The notes under the pieces were generated by a model. The model ran no database searches. It worked only from the letters and a program-made list of their open reading frames with translations, and was not told the origin of the DNA. This document shows, one piece after another, positions 1 through 9,072 of a stretch of DNA of 34,828 bases (its first letter is position 1; each line of letters begins with the position of its first letter). The DNA is from Opitutales bacterium (lineage in GTDB: Bacteria; Verrucomicrobiota; Verrucomicrobiia; Opitutales; UBA2987). The stretch is from assembly GCA_021772535.1 (NCBI GenBank), contig JAJFLV010000219.1:1-34828 (forward strand). Reading direction: 5' to 3'. The translations under genes and the position numbers were made by a program.

Positions 1-2070
1 GACAGCCTCACCGTGACTTCCACGGGAGTAATCGCCACCACCAATGGCGAGGTAACCCTGGCCACTAATGGCACTTTTACTTACGAGCACGACGGCAGCG
101 AGACCACCTCCGACTTTTTCGATTACACCGTTACTGACGGAAATTCTTCCCGCCTTGGAAGGGTCAATATCACCGTGGTGCCGGTCAGCGATGCTCCGCC
201 GGTGGCCAATCCTGAAAGTACCGCCACAACCGAAGGCGGCAGCACTTCGGTTTTGGATGGCGGAGCCACCAGCGTCCTTGCCAACGACACCGATGCGCCG
301 GATAACTCCGTTCTTTCCGTCATCAACACCGGAGTGAATGCCACCGACAATGGCTCCGTTAACTTGCTGGCCAATGGTGAATTTACCTACACCCACGACG
401 GCAGCGAGACCACCTCCGATTTCTTTGTTTATAGTATAACCGACGGCACGGACGCCAGAGCCGCCACGGTCGCTATTACCATCACTCCGGAAAACGATGC
501 CCCGGTGGCCAATGATGACCATGTCACGGTCAGCGAGGGGGGTTCGGTATCCGTTACCGACACAGGCGCAACCAGTGTGCTGGATAACGACATCGATGAC
601 GAGGAAGACGATCTCACGGTGACCAATCCGGGCACCTTTGATACGCTCAACGGCACCGTCACCTTGGAAGCCGACGGTGAATTCACCTACACCCACGACG
701 GTACCGAGACTACCACGGATAGCTTCGATTATGAAATAACCGATGGTGAGTTTACCGCCACGGCAACGGTGGATATCTGGATTACGGCTGTAAATGAACC
801 ACCGGTCGGCGTCGATGATCATATCGTCGTTCTGGAAGGTGATTATACTGATTATCTGGACACAGATGACGACAGTGTTTTGGACAACGATACCGATCCG
901 GACCTGCCGGCCGATACATTGACGGTTAATGTGACTCCAATAAGCGGCCCAAGCAACGGGACTCTGACTTTGAATGCCAACGGCACTTTTAATTACGCCC
1001 ATGATGATTCCGAAAACCTCACGGACAGCTTTGTTTACGAGTTGAGCGATGGTGAATTCACCACCACGGCGACGGTCGAGATCTGGATCACTCCAGTGAA
1101 TGACAATGTGCCCGTAGCCAATGATGATCTCGCCACTTTGACAACGGGCGCCACTTTATCTTCCGATAATGTCCTCGACAACGATACCGATGTTGACCTT
1201 CCAAACGACACTCTGACCGTGGATACAGTCCCCGTGAGCGGAACAGCCAATGGCACGTTGACTTTGGGGGCGGACGGTTCCTTCACCTACATGCACGATG
1301 GTTCCGCCACCACAACGGATAGTTTTGAATACGCGGTTCGAGATGCCGTTTACAACAGCAATACGATGCCGCCATTTTGGGAAACCAACTTCGGCGCAGC
1401 GCAAGGACTTAGTGATGACGATGATACGGATGACAACATCACGTTTGGTACCTTTTCATTCCCGTTTGCCGGCACCACTTACACAGGTAATGACGTGTTA
1501 AATATTTCCAGCAACGGTTTCGTCAGCCTGGGCGGGGATAATGATGATGATTGCTGTAGTGGAGACATTGATGAATTCCTGGAAGATACCTTTGCCCGTA
1601 TCGCGCCCTTCTGGACTGATTTGGATCCCGGAGATACCGGAGATGTATTTTTGAGAACCATTACCGATGATGATGGCGATGCGGACATTGATCGTATCGT
1701 CGTTACATGGGACACTGAATTGTATGGTTCCGGCTTACTGATAACCGTTCAATTGCAACTGTTGGAGGACGGGACCATCATCATGGGATATGATGATTTC
1801 GAATTAAACAGCGATGATGATAATGACGCCTTGATCGGTGTCAGCCCGGGAGCGGACGCTGCCGATCCTGGAAGCGGCGATTTCACTGCTGATTCACCAT
1901 TCGACAGCGGGACTGAGTCCACTATCTATGAATTCTGGGAAGCTGCTTCAGCACCTGCTGTCGATATTGGACAAGGAGCCAACATCATCTTTGAGCCCAA
2001 TGGTTCCGGTGGATTCGATGTCTCTATGGACACCGTCATGGCCACGGCCACGGTGAGTATCGGCATCTTC
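1..2070 (+). repeat. Tandem cadherin/VCBS-like protein repeats (five units, the last one interrupted)
   Basis: Five in-frame units of about 300 bp are visible, each containing a variant of FTYxHDGSxTTxDxFxY followed by a TDG turn and an ATVxIxITPxN strand. Units one and two are nearly identical at DNA level around 90-120 and 388-420 (both carry gacggcagcgagaccacctc), which points to recent duplication or gene conversion. The fifth unit stops after its DSFEYAVRDA turn near 1350 and resumes as ATATVSIGI near 2041. Confidence 0.85.
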
Positions 2071-3249
2071 GATCCCATCAATATTACCGAGCAGCCCATG
2101 GATGCCACTATCACCACCAACCAGTCGGCCCTGCTGACGGCGGTAACCGATGCCACCGGCGATGATATCACCTACCAGTGGTTCGAAGGCCAGAGCGGTG
2201 ACACTGACAACCCGGTGGATGATTCTTCGGAACTGCCCATCCTGGATTTGAGGGATAATGTGGTCGATGGAATGTCGGCGACGACCTTCATCAATGGCGA
2301 CGATGCCATGGTCCTGAAAAAGGACGGCGTGATCATCGACATGATCGGGGTGGTGGGCGTAGACCCGGCGGCAGGCTTCTGGGGCAGCGGTGATGTCACC
2401 ACCAGTGAGGACACCCTGATCCGCAAGTCGAGCGTAACCTCGGGCGACGCGGACGGTTTTGTCGGCAATGAGGATGATCTGACCGGCGAGTGGACGGGCT
2501 TCCCGCAGAATACATTTGACGATCTTGGGATGCACACAGCCGATGCGGCCACGACGGATCTGTTCTTCTCCGAGTACATCGAGGGCAGCAGCAACAACAA
2601 GGCCTTCGAAATCTTCAATGGCACTGGAGCGGTCGTGGACCTGACCGACTATGTGGTGGAGAGCTTCAACAATGGCCGGACGGCAGCAGAAGGGCCGACC
2701 AACACCCTGAACCTGATCGACCTGGCCGACGATCTGGCCGATGGAGCGGTTCTGGTGGTTGTCAACGACAGCGCCAATGGGACGGTAACCATAGGCACGG
2801 CGGACGCCGAGTTCGACACTGGAGCACTGGACGAGACAACCAGTTTCTGGGTGCAGATCGGTAATGGCGACATCACGGTGGACAGTGGCACGGCAACGGT
2901 GACTGTGCTGGATGTCTTCTCCGGTGTGGATATCGATGGATTCCCGGGCTGGAAAGCCTCCCCTTGGTATAAGAACTACTTCGCGGGCTTCTGGCCATGG
3001 ATCTACCACGACGAGGCCGGCTGGCAGTTCGTCTCAAGTGCCAGTCTGGAAGAGGAAATCTTCGTCTGGGATCTGGGAATTGGTTTTTGGGCCTTTTTCA
3101 ATGAAGACTCCTGGAGGCATATGTATGTCTTCAGCCAGTCGCCCTTCTTCCCCGAAGGCTGGTATTTCTCCTTCGCTGGGAACACACCTGAGCTGAGATT
3201 CTTCCAGGATCTCGACGGGAATATCCGCAGCATTCCGCCCGCGCAGTAA
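1..3249 (+). CDS. Exported multidomain repeat protein, 5'-truncated (cadherin/VCBS-like repeats, nidogen-like, Ig, lamin-tail, Trp-rich C-terminus)
   Basis: The reading frame is open from base 1, so the start and signal peptide lie outside the window; the GTG at base 13 is only an internal codon. Numbered from base 1, there are 1082 residues. Residues 1 to about 450 hold five cadherin/VCBS-like repeats of about 100 residues, each with a core like FTYTHDGSETTSDFF. Residues 450-678 form an Asp-rich beta domain resembling nidogen-type domains, sitting inside the fifth repeat. An Ig-like half domain (near 695-740) is followed by a lamin-tail domain in permuted order, the second Ig half (near 935-970), and a Trp/Phe-rich C-terminal domain with FWPWIYHDEAGWQFV. 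The acidic loops suggest calcium binding. The likely role is adhesion or surface structure, which is inference. A terminator follows, and the next gene is a paralogue over the last roughly 380 residues. No catalytic motif is visible. Confidence 0.85.
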   Translation, partial: DSLTVTSTGVIATTNGEVTLATNGTFTYEHDGSETTSDFFDYTVTDGNSSRLGRVNITVVPVSDAPPVANPESTATTEGGSTSVLDGGATSVLANDTDAPDNSVLSVINTGVNATDNGSVNLLANGEFTYTHDGSETTSDFFVYSITDGTDARAATVAITITPENDAPVANDDHVTVSEGGSVSVTDTGATSVLDNDIDDEEDDLTVTNPGTFDTLNGTVTLEADGEFTYTHDGTETTTDSFDYEITDGEFTATATVDIWITAVNEPPVGVDDHIVVLEGDYTDYLDTDDDSVLDNDTDPDLPADTLTVNVTPISGPSNGTLTLNANGTFNYAHDDSENLTDSFVYELSDGEFTTTATVEIWITPVNDNVPVANDDLATLTTGATLSSDNVLDNDTDVDLPNDTLTVDTVPVSGTANGTLTLGADGSFTYMHDGSATTTDSFEYAVRDAVYNSNTMPPFWETNFGAAQGLSDDDDTDDNITFGTFSFPFAGTTYTGNDVLNISSNGFVSLGGDNDDDCCSGDIDEFLEDTFARIAPFWTDLDPGDTGDVFLRTITDDDGDADIDRIVVTWDTELYGSGLLITVQLQLLEDGTIIMGYDDFELNSDDDNDALIGVSPGADAADPGSGDFTADSPFDSGTESTIYEFWEAASAPAVDIGQGANIIFEPNGSGGFDVSMDTVMATATVSIGIFDPINITEQPMDATITTNQSALLTAVTDATGDDITYQWFEGQSGDTDNPVDDSSELPILDLRDNVVDGMSATTFINGDDAMVLKKDGVIIDMIGVVGVDPAAGFWGSGDVTTSEDTLIRKSSVTSGDADGFVGNEDDLTGEWTGFPQNTFDDLGMHTADAATTDLFFSEYIEGSSNNKAFEIFNGTGAVVDLTDYVVESFNNGRTAAEGPTNTLNLIDLADDLADGAVLVVVNDSANGTVTIGTADAEFDTGALDETTSFWVQIGNGDITVDSGTATVTVLDVFSGVDIDGFPGWKASPWYKNYFAGFWPWIYHDEAGWQFVSSASLEEEIFVWDLGIGFWAFFNEDSWRHMYVFSQSPFFPEGWYFSFAGNTPELRFFQDLDGNIRSIPPAQ

Positions 3250-3325: not shown

Positions 3326-3711
3326 ATTTCGTCACCACCCGAATACACTTGTTAAACAAAAGAAGGCTGATTGCGCTTTGCCATTACCTGCAAACAACTC
3401 TTGTCCGGCATCAATGAAACTACCCCGGATGGGTTGTATTCAAAACGAAGTCCGTCCGGCCATGTCTTAGGCTGTAGAAGCCTTCCCGGTGAGTGTTTAT
3501 TATGCTAATGATCTGGCCCAGTTTTGAACAGACTTACCTCTAAACGTATTGACTCACTGCCTTTAAGAGTTTTTTCTTAAGGAGCATACCGAATCCAGAT
3601 AATAGATTTGATATCCTCCGCTTGAATTTTTGTTCAATTTCAAGAGGAGGTTCGTTATTCTATTCACTGCTTACACTATAACCATTGAAGATCTTAGATA
3701 TTCCACTTCCT
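3326..3711 (+). other. Intergenic leader region with a hairpin at 3615-3650
   Basis: No credible gene is seen in these 386 bases. The one structure is an imperfect hairpin: CCTCC pairs with GGAGG and CTTGAA with TTCAAG (3615-3626 with 3639-3650, one mismatch). It hides a GGAGG that lies about 60 bases before the ATG at 3712, too far to act as its ribosome-binding site. It could be a 5' leader structure. A promoter is presumably here because a terminator lies upstream, but I cannot place it with confidence. Confidence 0.4.
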
Positions 3712-5562
3712 ATGAAAAAACTCTTAACCACCTTCTTTTCACTCATATTTACGGCTACTTGTGCCTTCTCAACCTTGCAGCTCAACGAAATCCACATCGA
3801 CATGCCTGGGTCCGACGACAACGAGTATTTCGAGATCACAGGGGATCCCGGCGAATCGCTCGATGGCGTTTGGTATGTGGTCCTCGGCGACCATTCCGGC
3901 CAAGATCCCAACCCACCGACCAAGGGCAGCGGAACCATCGAGTTTGCAACCAGTCTGGATGGACTTGCCATTCCCGACACCGGCTTTTTTCTTGGCACGG
4001 AGTTTGGTTTCAACTTGGCCGCCACTCCAACCGCCCAGTTTTTTGATCTTATTTTTGAAAACAACGACAGCACCACCCACCTGATCGTTCGTGGATACAC
4101 AGGACCCAGGGTAGAAGTCCAGGCCGAGCAGGAAGGTGATTTGGGTGTTACCATCGACCTCGACAACGATGGTGTCGTCGATGTCGACCCCCTTCCCTGG
4201 GCTGAGGTGATCGATGCTGTTGCCGTGACGGAACCCGATGGCGATGAACCTCCCTATGGCCTTGCCCTTGGCGGGACCGATGTTCCCCCAAATGGGACAT
4301 TTACTGCCGCCCATGTATATCGCAGTAATGTGAATAATTCATGGGTAATTGGTTCATTTGATGTCACAGGAGAATTCTCCGACGATACGCCAGGGTCTGA
4401 AAATCCGGCGGGAAATATAATTCCGACGGAACTCATCATCAACGATCAGCCGCAGAATGGAACCATCAACAGCGGGGAATCGACTCAATTGTCCGTCAAT
4501 GCGGAAGGCCCGGGTACTTTGGTTTATGAGTGGTTTCAGGGACAAAGCGGTGACACCAGCACTCCCGTTGCCGACCCATCCATCCAGGATCAGGCTGATG
4601 CCACCAGCACGATAACTTTCTTTAATGGAAATGACGCAGTTGCTCTTCGTAAAAGTGGTGTACTTATCGATGTGATTGGAGTGATTGGTGTAGACCCGGC
4701 GGGAGGCCTTTGGGGTAGTGGAGACGCCACCACCGGTGAAAATACTCTGGTCAGAAAATCGAGTGTAACCCAGGGAGATGCAGACGGATTTGTCGGCAAT
4801 GAAACCGATTTAACCGGTGAATGGACCGGGTTCCCACAGGATACTTTCGACGATTTGGGCAAACATACTGCGGATGCGCCAGCAACCGACCTCTTCATTT
4901 CCGAATACATCGAAGGAAGCGCCAGCAACAAGGCTGTTGAAATTTACAACGGGACTGGAGCCGATGTTGATCTTAGTCAGTATGTAGTGGAATTGTATTC
5001 AAATGGTGGAGCCGAAGCAAATGACCCCCCCCTTACCCTAAGCACGGTTCAAGCCATGCTGGGCGATGGAGAGGTTCTTGTCATCGCAAACGCGCAGGCG
5101 GTCGGTCCCAATGAAGATTTCACCACGCCTGTCCTCACCGAAACCACAAGTTTCTGGGTCCGCATAAGCTCCGGGGATGATAGTGTGGACGGCGATACGG
5201 CTACGGTTACGGTCGAAGGCGGCGGGGCGCTCGATGTATTTGGCGGAACGCCGATCGATGGATTCCCCGACTGGAGAGAATCGACCTGGTATCTAAACTA
5301 CAATATCGAATTCTTCCCTTGGATTTTCCATGACGAGCATGGCTGGCAATTTGTTTTTGATGGAAGTACCACCGATGTGATTTTCCTCTTCGATTTGGGC
5401 TTGGATAATTGGATTTTCTTGAATGAGAGCACTTATCGCTGGGAATTTCTGTTCGGGGCCGAACCTGGCTGGATTTTCACTTTTGATGACAATACCCCTG
5501 ATAGGCGCTTTTTTCAGCGTCTGGACGACGGGAGCCTATTCAGCGTGCCGGCTGATCTCTAG
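3712..5562 (+). CDS. Secreted lamin-tail/Ig protein with Trp-rich C-terminal domain (paralogue of the upstream gene)
   Basis: The 616-residue product begins with a clear signal peptide, MKKLLTTFFSLIFTATCAFS, so the ATG at 3712 is chosen over the in-frame TTG at 3685. Residues 20-240 look like a lamin-tail-like beta domain (STLQLNEIHIDMPGSDDNEY). Then come an Ig-like first half ending GQSGDTSTPV (about 239-286), the C-terminal half of a lamin-tail domain (FFNGNDAVALRKSG to FDDLGKHT), its N-terminal half (DLFISEYIEGS to VLVIANAQAV), the second Ig half (ETTSFWVRISSG), and a Trp/Phe-rich end with FFPWIFHDEHGWQFV. The last roughly 380 residues match the upstream protein closely. It probably acts outside the cytoplasm. 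Lamin-tail domains often occur in secreted nucleases, but no nuclease domain is present. A terminator follows. The specific function is unknown. Confidence 0.85.
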   Translation: MKKLLTTFFSLIFTATCAFSTLQLNEIHIDMPGSDDNEYFEITGDPGESLDGVWYVVLGDHSGQDPNPPTKGSGTIEFATSLDGLAIPDTGFFLGTEFGFNLAATPTAQFFDLIFENNDSTTHLIVRGYTGPRVEVQAEQEGDLGVTIDLDNDGVVDVDPLPWAEVIDAVAVTEPDGDEPPYGLALGGTDVPPNGTFTAAHVYRSNVNNSWVIGSFDVTGEFSDDTPGSENPAGNIIPTELIINDQPQNGTINSGESTQLSVNAEGPGTLVYEWFQGQSGDTSTPVADPSIQDQADATSTITFFNGNDAVALRKSGVLIDVIGVIGVDPAGGLWGSGDATTGENTLVRKSSVTQGDADGFVGNETDLTGEWTGFPQDTFDDLGKHTADAPATDLFISEYIEGSASNKAVEIYNGTGADVDLSQYVVELYSNGGAEANDPPLTLSTVQAMLGDGEVLVIANAQAVGPNEDFTTPVLTETTSFWVRISSGDDSVDGDTATVTVEGGGALDVFGGTPIDGFPDWRESTWYLNYNIEFFPWIFHDEHGWQFVFDGSTTDVIFLFDLGLDNWIFLNESTYRWEFLFGAEPGWIFTFDDNTPDRRFFQRLDDGSLFSVPADL

Positions 5563-5811: not shown

Positions 5812-8800
5812 ATGAACTTTCGGTCAAACTACAGACTTACTTCTATCTGGCTGTTGTTTATAGTCAGTTTTGGCGGCATTCTCCATGGGCAGAATATCAC
5901 CTCCACGGCTATAAACGGAACCGTCAAGGACCAGGCCGGGGTCTTGGTCGAGGGCGCTTCCATAAAAGCGATACACGGCCCGACGGGAACCGTTTTCAAT
6001 GCCGCCACCCGGCCCAATGGCCGCTACAATCTTCGCGGTATGCGAGTGGGTGGACCCTACTCGTTGATTATTTCCGCCGTCGGTTACCGGTCGGAAACGC
6101 GTAGCGGGATTTACCTGGCTTTGCGCCAGGACCAGAATTACGATTTCACCCTTGCGTTGGATTCTGCCGAAGTCATAAGTCTGGAAGCTTACGAAGTTGT
6201 CGCCGATCAATATAATTTAACCTTCTCGGCCGATAATTTCGGGGCCAATACCAATGTCAGCAGCGCGGATTTGCAAAGCCTGCCCACCGTCACGCGCTCC
6301 CTCACTGATTTTGCCCGATTGGACCCTCGCGTGACGGTTTTCGACCGGGAGACGGGCGCTCTTTCAGCGGGGGGCCAAAACAACCGTTACAATTCGATCA
6401 TGATCGATGGGGTGCCCACCAACGACTCCTTCGGGTTGGAAGAAAACGGTCTTCCATCCCTCACACAGCCTTTTTCCCTCGACACGATTGAGGAAATTAG
6501 TGTGGAAACTTCCCCTTACGATGTATTGCAGGCAGGATTCACCGGGGCCACTATCAATGCGATCACCAAGAGTGGCACCAATGAATTCAAGGGAAGTTTT
6601 TTTTATTTATTCCGCAATGAAAGCCTGACCGGAAAGCGACTCGAATTTACCGATCTAACCGATGGCCCGGACGGAACTTTCCAGAAACTGGAAAGTTTTG
6701 ATGAGAGCACCCTCGGCTTTACTTTGGGTGGGCCAATTATCAAGGACAAGCTCTTCTTTTTCTTTTCCTTTGAGCGGTTTAAGAGGACGGAGATTCCGCC
6801 GGTGCGGCTATTCGATCCAACACCTGTGGAGCTTGGAAAGATTACCGCCCTTGCCACCGAATATGGTTTTGAAGCGGGAACCCTTGATACTGGAGATGAC
6901 AAGATTTCCACCGATGACAAGATATTGGCCAAACTGGATTGGAACATAAGCGAAAAGCATCGTTTAACTGCTCGCTATACTTTGAATAACGGGGATGATC
7001 CGCAGTTTCCCTCTTTTGGGGGTTCCTCATCCACTTCCTTGAGCAGCTATTGGTTCACCCGAACCCGCGAAAACAGCAATTTCGTCACGGAATTATTCAG
7101 CAAGTGGAACGACCGCCTCAGCACCGAGGCGAAAATTTCCTTCAGCAAATTCACCAGGACCAGCGATACCAACAGCGACGCCCCGCAGGTTCAGATTTCC
7201 AGTGTCAACGGCCTCGACGGCAATAATGGATCGGTGAATTTTGGCAGGGTTTCCGGGGAGCATTCCAACTTTCTCGAAGTAAAAACCACCATATTTCAAT
7301 TCCATGCCGACTATTTCCTAGGCAACCATACACTGACAGTGGGCACAAATATTGAAGATGTTGCCAATAATAACCTGTTTGTCAGTGACAGTCGCGGAAG
7401 ATGGCGTTTTAACACGGTGGCCGAATTCGAACGGGCTGTGGCCCGGCCGGACGACCCTCCGCACCCGCCTGGCGCCACTTTTCCTCCACCGGGACCGGGC
7501 AATGCGGCCAATTTCAATGTCAGCTACCCTCTTGGGGATTCCGATGGTGCGGCCAATTGGTCTTTAACCACTTTTTCATTTTTTGCCAAGGATACCTGGG
7601 ACGTAACCGATAAGCTGAAAATAACCGCCGGAATACGCGCTGACCTTCCCACGGTTGACGACGAGATTCCACTCAACCAGGAGTTTGTGGACCAGTTCGG
7701 GCGTGAGCATACCGCAACCGTCGACGGCAATTTCGTCATCCAACCCCGGGTTGGGTTTAACTGGGCTCTTGATGAGGATCGCAAAACACAATTGAGGGGT
7801 GGAGGTGGTCTCTTCTATGGGACCGCGCCGCATGTCTGGCTTTCCAATCCCTTTGTGCGTAACGGAGTTACCGTCATAAGCTCGAGTCCCACTCGCAGGG
7901 ATACGCCGGAATTTTCCGCAGATGGAGACAATCCTCCCATTCCCGATACCGTCCAGCCGACTTTTAGGGTAGATTTATTGGATGAAGATTTCGAGATGCC
8001 CAGCTCCTGGAAAGCCAATTTCGCCATCGACCGCAAACTGCCTTGGTGGAATATGCAATTGACCATTGAAGCACAATGGTCCTGGACCAAAAACGACATT
8101 CATTACCAGCACCTCAACCTGGCCCAGGATTTTGCCCTCAGCCGCCCGACTGCCACAGGATTTTTACCGGATGGGAGAAATCTTTATGATAAGGACCCTT
8201 CCGGCCGCCGGGAATTCGCCATCGAGGGGTTTGATAATGTTTTTCTGCTGACCAATACCAGTCTTGGAGAATCGGCCAATTATACGATCAAACTGGAGAA
8301 ACCGAAGCGAAAGGGCTTTTACTGGAGTTTTGGCTATACCTATGGCAGCGCCAAGTCCGTTAATGATGGTAGAGGATCCTCGGCCTCCTCCATCTGGGGA
8401 GACAACAAGGCCAAAAACCCCAACGACAATACCACCGCGACCAGCGATTTCGAGGTCCGCAACCGTTTGGTCGGCGTCGTCTCCTACCAGTTCAAACTGC
8501 TCAAGAATTCCACAACCTCCGTTTCGCTGGTCTATGACGGGCGCACGGGTCGCCCCTTCAGTTATACCTATTTCCGCACCGACATGAACCGGGACTCCAA
8601 TTTTTCAAACGACCTCATATACATTCCCGATGGCCGGGACGATCCCTTGGTTCTTTTCACCCGGGAATCGGAAAAAGACGCTTTTTGGGAATTTGTCGAT
8701 AAGACCAGGGGTCTGAGCTTGTTCCAGGGCCAGGTGGTGCCGCGCAATACAGGGCGGGATCCCTGGATTCACCAGTTCGATCTTAAATTTGTCCATGAAG

Positions 8801-9072
8801 TTACTTTCCTCAAAAGGCACCGGGTTGAATTCTCCGCTGCCATCCTTAATTTTGGAAATATGATTAACAGCGACTGGGGTCTGGTTCGCCGAACCAACAG
8901 CGGCAATTTTCCATTGCTGGAAGCCCGGCACCTTCCTGACAACACGGGTGAAACCAACGGAATTTTCGTTTATCGTTTTCTTGATACACTCCTGGACGAG
9001 GATCGTGTCAGCACCACCACGCAGCTTTCCTCCCGTTGGTCTATTCTGCTGGGCGTCAAATACCGGTTTTGA
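5812..9072 (+). CDS. Oar-like TonB-dependent outer-membrane receptor with carboxypeptidase-regulatory domain
   Basis: The 1086-residue product is a beta-barrel outer-membrane receptor of the Oar-like type. An N-terminal hydrophobic signal (LTSIWLLFIVSFGGILHGQ) is followed by a carboxypeptidase-regulatory-like fold at about 35-120 (INGTVKDQAGVLVEGASIKA). The plug comes next, at about 140-260 (NNRYNSIMIDGVPTNDSFG, then GATINAITKSGTNEFKGSFF). The rest is barrel strands, and the protein ends in KYRF, an aromatic C-terminus expected for outer-membrane barrels. Such receptors take up or export large substrates using TonB energy; no substrate can be read from the sequence. It is monocistronic: a terminator lies upstream and a convergent gene downstream. 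There is no good Shine-Dalgarno before the ATG, as for several genes here. Its position after two secreted surface proteins suggests a common envelope role, which is inference. Confidence 0.92.
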   Translation: MNFRSNYRLTSIWLLFIVSFGGILHGQNITSTAINGTVKDQAGVLVEGASIKAIHGPTGTVFNAATRPNGRYNLRGMRVGGPYSLIISAVGYRSETRSGIYLALRQDQNYDFTLALDSAEVISLEAYEVVADQYNLTFSADNFGANTNVSSADLQSLPTVTRSLTDFARLDPRVTVFDRETGALSAGGQNNRYNSIMIDGVPTNDSFGLEENGLPSLTQPFSLDTIEEISVETSPYDVLQAGFTGATINAITKSGTNEFKGSFFYLFRNESLTGKRLEFTDLTDGPDGTFQKLESFDESTLGFTLGGPIIKDKLFFFFSFERFKRTEIPPVRLFDPTPVELGKITALATEYGFEAGTLDTGDDKISTDDKILAKLDWNISEKHRLTARYTLNNGDDPQFPSFGGSSSTSLSSYWFTRTRENSNFVTELFSKWNDRLSTEAKISFSKFTRTSDTNSDAPQVQISSVNGLDGNNGSVNFGRVSGEHSNFLEVKTTIFQFHADYFLGNHTLTVGTNIEDVANNNLFVSDSRGRWRFNTVAEFERAVARPDDPPHPPGATFPPPGPGNAANFNVSYPLGDSDGAANWSLTTFSFFAKDTWDVTDKLKITAGIRADLPTVDDEIPLNQEFVDQFGREHTATVDGNFVIQPRVGFNWALDEDRKTQLRGGGGLFYGTAPHVWLSNPFVRNGVTVISSSPTRRDTPEFSADGDNPPIPDTVQPTFRVDLLDEDFEMPSSWKANFAIDRKLPWWNMQLTIEAQWSWTKNDIHYQHLNLAQDFALSRPTATGFLPDGRNLYDKDPSGRREFAIEGFDNVFLLTNTSLGESANYTIKLEKPKRKGFYWSFGYTYGSAKSVNDGRGSSASSIWGDNKAKNPNDNTTATSDFEVRNRLVGVVSYQFKLLKNSTTSVSLVYDGRTGRPFSYTYFRTDMNRDSNFSNDLIYIPDGRDDPLVLFTRESEKDAFWEFVDKTRGLSLFQGQVVPRNTGRDPWIHQFDLKFVHEVTFLKRHRVEFSAAILNFGNMINSDWGLVRRTNSGNFPLLEARHLPDNTGETNGIFVYRFLDTLLDEDRVSTTTQLSSRWSILLGVKYRF

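Follow-up and report, generated by a model that had tools for sequence, protein, structure and literature searches.

Can an Ig-like domain be interrupted by a complete lamin-tail domain whose own two halves stand in swapped order, and how would such a nest have come about? A first-pass annotation had proposed this arrangement for one gene, here called gene P, in the window analyzed (34,828 nt), which is one whole contig (JAJFLV010000219.1) of the 272-contig draft genome of an Opitutales bacterium (GCA_021772535.1). The open reading frame of gene P and all segments quoted in that annotation were located where it had placed them. The relevant features, including a neighboring paralogue that the annotation had not mentioned, are the following.

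3712..5562, forward strand: gene P, 616 aa from the ATG at 3712 or 625 aa from a TTG at 3685
3769..4422, forward strand: gene P, N-terminal region, no Pfam match
4423..4569, forward strand: gene P, Ig-like N-terminal half (strands A, B and C), ending in GQSGDTSTPV; Ig_7 (PF19081) profile positions 8-52, own Ig model 2-47
4570..4869, forward strand: gene P, lamin-tail C-terminal half, ADPSIQDQ to TFDDLGKHT; own lamin-tail model 65-163, match to C130:286-582 at 51% identity
4870..4887, forward strand: gene P, 6-aa linker ADAPAT, joining the native C-terminal end of the lamin-tail domain to its native N-terminal end
4888..5103, forward strand: gene P, lamin-tail N-terminal half, DLFISEYIEGS to VLVIANAQAV; PF00932 positions 4-71 (46.0 bits), own lamin-tail model from position 1, match to C130:70-285 at 56% identity
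5104..5220, forward strand: gene P, Ig-like C-terminal half, GPNEDFTTPVLTETTSFWVRISSG to TATVTVEG; Ig_7 positions 47-82 of 84, own Ig model 45-83
5254..5559, forward strand: gene P, aromatic-rich C-terminal domain of ~100 aa, FPGWxxSxWYxNYN..PWIYHDEHGWQFV..DNTPxxRFFQRLDDGS
13..3249, forward strand: paralogous gene, frame open to the left contig end, its start cut off by that end
2074..2217, forward strand: paralogue, Ig N-terminal half, ending in GQSGDTDNPV
2218..2538, forward strand: paralogue, lamin-tail C-terminal half, beginning with an extra stretch
2557..2778, forward strand: paralogue, lamin-tail N-terminal half (own lamin-tail model)
2794..2907, forward strand: paralogue, Ig C-terminal half (own Ig model)
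2932..3237, forward strand: paralogue, the same C-terminal domain
5812..9072, forward strand: gene for a TonB-dependent receptor-type outer-membrane protein, directly downstream of gene P

Counted from TTG 3685, the module occupies residues 247-512 and consists of an Ig N-terminal half (IgN, 247-295), the C-terminal half of the lamin-tail domain (LTDC, 296-395), the linker (396-401), the N-terminal half of the lamin-tail domain (LTDN, 402-473) and an Ig C-terminal half (IgC, 474-512).

The Ig-like domain was recognized by the Ig_7 profile in two complementary partial matches (positions 8-52 and 47-82 of 84), between which ~178 residues break its continuity. With the insert removed, a single match covering positions 8-82 was obtained at 37.2 bits, above the curated Pfam cut-off of 27.3 bits. 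The native module reached 27.7 bits in two stretches, and the whole native protein scored 24.5 bits, below the cut-off. As the match cannot proceed past position 52 unless the distal segment is supplied, the Ig-like domain is incomplete in sequence without it, as the first reading had held. An Ig model of our own, built from uninterrupted Ig domains, likewise gave two partial matches in each native copy (in the orthologue described below, 2-46 and 50-83 with the insert between them) and one match of 86 to 109 bits once the parts were joined. Each Ig part is thus partial and the joined domain full, which is the A1-B-A2 pattern of a domain insertion at the sequence level.

For the insert, profile searches in both orders pointed to a whole domain. 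The N-terminal half alone matched positions 4-71 of 109 of the Lamin Tail Domain profile (PF00932; cut-off, 34.3 bits), the C-terminal half by itself had no match to this profile, and the native module scored 54.6 bits in two stretches. Exchanging the two halves, and so joining the ends as had been suggested, restored a canonical lamin-tail domain (positions 4-107; 60.6 bits). We also scored all circular rotations of the insert against a model made from 20 canonical lamin-tail domains. The native gene P order scored 104.1 bits (model positions 68-163) and the rotation cut at the linker 197.5 bits (positions 1-163). Corresponding increases were found for the paralogue (from 92.2 to 173.0 bits) and the orthologue (from 102.3 to 189.9 bits). 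In all three copies, the C-terminal half precedes the N-terminal half, the canonical continuous order is absent, and the scan has a single broad maximum, at the linker, so that one rotation recovers the whole domain. This gain is far above chance. Two separate lamin-tail domains within the insert were ruled out, since the model positions present suffice for only one. The gene P protein had no Pfam match to saposin; the ExeM/NucH nuclease profile NF033680 (cut-off, 1300 bits) reached 56.0 bits in the lamin-tail region only, and a nuclease domain is absent from the protein.

Ordinary-order counterparts of both domains were found. A nuclease-type protein encoded on another contig of the same genome (C130) carries a lamin-tail domain in canonical order, to which both halves of the insert align back to back, abutting at C130:285/286. 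The rejoined insert aligned with this domain in one piece over 171 aa at 52% identity. The empty site is visible in uninterrupted Ig homologues, in which STPV is followed directly by GTNAASFTTP; they read GQSGDISTPV-GTNAASFTSPALLAATSFWVRVSN, compared with GQSGDTSTPV-insert-GPNEDFTTPVLTETTSFWVRISSG in gene P. Because the join is nearly seamless relative to these homologues, the apparent loss from the Ig-like domain of gene P is one or two residues at most. The Pfam matches before and after rejoining, the rotation scan and our own Ig model bear out the proposal of an Ig-like domain split by a complete, circularly permuted lamin-tail domain.

The arrangement recurs outside gene P. The paralogue has the module in identical order at 2074-2907 and is 55% identical to gene P at the protein level over a stretch of 391 aa that takes in the C-terminal domain, while the N-terminal regions differ: in the paralogue, cadherin/VCBS-type repeats and a weakly recognized nidogen-like region precede the module. 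In a second species of the genus (Opitutales bacterium, contig JAJFLT010000160.1), a syntenic orthologue encodes the interleaved module at 74% identity and is followed by a TonB-dependent receptor gene 91% identical to that in the window. Between the two species, pN/pS ranged from 0.15 to 0.27 in every part of the module, linker included; these estimates are rough because dS is saturated in parts. At the sequence level, we could thus demonstrate the order IgN-LTDC-linker-LTDN-IgC, the completeness of both domains after rejoining, the conservation of the arrangement and constraint on all of its parts.

These data bear on two readings that would deny the module any reality as a protein. A draft genome of 272 contigs, with the window being a single whole contig, could in principle contain an assembly or binning chimera of unrelated fragments. 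However, the same order occurs twice in this contig at only 55% protein identity and again in the assembly of another species at 74% with the same downstream gene, and the frames are open and under constraint. The paralogue and the second-species gene show that the arrangement is no assembly artefact, and a chimera, refuted for practical purposes, retains a negligible probability. Degenerate leftovers, that is, a broken Ig domain and two half lamin-tail domains that do not fold, would agree with the low confidence at which the Ig parts were modeled (see below). This reading is nevertheless very improbable given the pN/pS values across all parts, a rejoined lamin-tail score exceeding that of an intact canonical lamin-tail domain of the same genome (60.6 versus 40.3 bits) and a rejoined Ig domain above the Pfam cut-off.

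Structure prediction supported the proposal in part: a compact lamin-tail region was obtained (pLDDT ~82-98), while the Ig part was modeled at low confidence (33-60). In the AlphaFold2 runs, rows from tandem arrays were used in the alignment for the insert, and the orthologue was run with cleaned extra Ig rows. For gene P, the permuted lamin-tail region (module residues ~55-220) was predicted with eight strands at high confidence (block pLDDT 88-98, linker included; 79 for block 51-60), and the Ig parts had values of 33 to 56. In the orthologue, the lamin-tail core was mostly at 82 to 96, with dips to 70-74, and the Ig parts were at 41 to 60. The Ig strands of the orthologue (3-6, 18-26 and 31-38 before the insert; 229-232, 240-247 and 255-261 after it) followed the order expected for an Ig domain, at low confidence. 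Because of this low confidence, the case for the Ig domain is a sequence-based one, and the predicted compact lamin-tail region supports that for the insert. Foldseek searches against the PDB with the gene P and orthologue models returned no significant match, an outcome that is expected for a permuted order but is no positive evidence for one; searching the sequences of solved structures with a profile of the module likewise gave nothing relevant.

The model confidence and the short linker suggest that the two lamin-tail halves assemble within one chain. Sequence alone cannot separate such pairing from pairing between chains, and in proteins that are probably secreted and repetitive in style, halves swapped between neighboring molecules could build chains or fibres at the cell surface. 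This is, however, clearly improbable, as the 6-aa linker is as short as the linkers between tandem domains and AlphaFold2 models it, together with the two halves, at high confidence in a single chain. We therefore favor a single chain in which both domains fold. The lamin-tail halves are probably paired via the 6-aa linker, and the lamin-tail loop that was opened (VIANAQ/ADPS) probably attaches the domain at two points to the loop of the Ig domain.

Bacteria from several phyla have lamin-tail domains in tandem arrays of two to five repeats (L032-L036). The linkers measure ~4 to 20 aa, and a piece running from the middle of one domain to the middle of the next consists of a C-terminal half, a linker and an N-terminal half, the same as the insert. 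Such arrays are possible donors of out-of-phase slices. The donor is hypothetical, as the genome analyzed yielded no tandem array with lamin-tail domains of the matching type.

We consider it likely that the module is an Ig_7-type domain carrying a complete, circularly permuted lamin-tail domain in the loop before the FTTP strand, derived from an out-of-phase slice of a tandem array. A slice one repeat long would have been copied or excised from the array and inserted, in a single event, into an Ig domain that already existed, with STPV before it and G(P/T)N after it; the loop of that Ig domain would have been a tolerant insertion place. The slice may have been able to fold at once, because any one-repeat, out-of-phase slice amounts to a whole domain in circularly permuted order. 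Once complete, the module would have been duplicated together with the C-terminal domain, the new copy coming to lie next door behind a different N-terminal region. The identical architecture would have resulted if an ancestor of the Ig-LTD-LTD-Ig type had undergone two internal deletions that joined IgN to LTDC and LTDN to IgC; lamin-tail domains in tandem pairs and Ig domains in tandem do occur. Yet this requires two separate deletions, each of which happened to leave precisely complementary halves of the two domains. No protein of the Ig-LTD-LTD-Ig type was seen, and the Ig domain rejoins with almost no missing or extra residue relative to the empty-site homologues, as a single insertion predicts. 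This route is unlikely, and we infer that insertion of a single slice is the simplest and most likely origin. Taken as a whole, the module is probably a natural, conserved nest of two beta-sandwich domains, the inner one permuted, which arose by a single insertion and was later copied as a unit to a second protein, with the empty site and candidate donors visible in relatives.

The known extent of the interleaved module is three genes in two species. No further copy was detected among the loci read in relatives, in overlapping genome samples of the class (384), order (373) and phylum (388), of which the best six candidates per genome were scored, or in GTDB contigs, viral contigs, plasmids and phages, the plasmid and phage matches being judged from the match table only. 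All other lamin-tail and Ig domains examined had the ordinary order. A third species of the genus lacks the locus and so yielded no pre-insertion orthologue with an uninterrupted Ig domain.

The general kind of arrangement has been described previously. In swaposin, a permuted saposin domain (helices 3-4-1-2) is inserted in a plant aspartic proteinase, and permutation by duplication was invoked by Ponting and Russell to explain it (PMC3320104). The earlier statement that no such case had been described can thus hold only for the pair of lamin-tail and Ig domains. As in gene P, a permuted domain from a family that forms tandem arrays is nested inside another domain; in contrast, gene P combines two beta-sandwiches, a lamin-tail in an Ig-like domain, in a bacterial protein without a protease, and nothing indicates that the insert is removed. 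Lamin-tail domains of ExeM/NucH-type extracellular nucleases belong to the same sequence family as the insert, whereas in gene P the halves are swapped and lie inside an Ig domain with no nuclease domain. Proteins with tandem lamin-tail repeats, noted previously in bacteria (PMC6085458), share the stretch of C-terminal half, short linker and N-terminal half between neighboring repeats but have whole domains at both ends and lack a surrounding Ig domain. Ig_7 domains of Verrucomicrobia and other bacteria are of the same family as the outer domain but are uninterrupted, with STPVGTNAASFTTP at the insertion point and no insert. Natural circular permutation has also been reported for C2 domains, which have Ig-extended folds (PMC12051499); in these Ig-related sandwiches, one terminal strand rather than half a domain was moved, and there is no nesting. 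Domain insertion itself is common, occurring in 20% of multidomain proteins (PMC13114784). Searches of the open-access literature brought up no description of a permuted lamin-tail domain. To our knowledge, as far as that literature goes, this would be the first such nested permuted module reported in bacteria or involving Ig-like and lamin-tail domains. The lamin-tail/Ig pair thus appears to be undescribed, the kind of arrangement being known from swaposin.

The N-terminal hydrophobic stretch of gene P (MKKLLTTFFSLIFTATCAF) resembles a Sec signal peptide by eye, and the product probably carries one. The region that follows (3769-4422) is similar to the starts of proteins in other genera of the order, which continue with different domains and C-terminal parts; one of these proteins has nuclease-like parts. 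The C-terminal domain is present in 42 to 43 copies in this genome and in 30 and 9 copies in two other species of the genus. None was detected in the other family member, only weak matches were found in the order, and no Pfam or NCBIfam family corresponds to it. It resembles a lineage-specific domain for sorting or anchoring. The order of gene P and its downstream receptor gene is kept in the second species, and TonB-dependent receptor genes repeatedly adjoin genes for lamin-tail proteins with this C-terminal domain (window 5812-9072; L013, C46:24001-38500; L014, C18:56001-64246), suggesting pairs of receptor and surface protein. No role has been settled for lamin-tail domains in bacteria (PMC6085458). 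The probable signal peptide, the C-terminal domain shared across this genome and the adjoining TonB-dependent receptor together suggest a binding role at the cell surface or in secreted form. The module might tentatively be viewed as a doubly tethered binding or spacer unit in a secreted, probably surface-attached protein working beside the receptor.

Circular permutation and domain insertion are mostly separate fields of study, and the two would here be combined in one event. The module also exposes a blind spot of annotation, as Pfam profiles catch only fragments of it and the native protein falls below the Ig_7 cut-off. Similar nested permutations may therefore stand elsewhere as partial matches. 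With an empty site, a canonical counterpart in the same genome and possible donor arrays at hand, the route of permutation by duplication would become directly testable for beta-sandwich domains.
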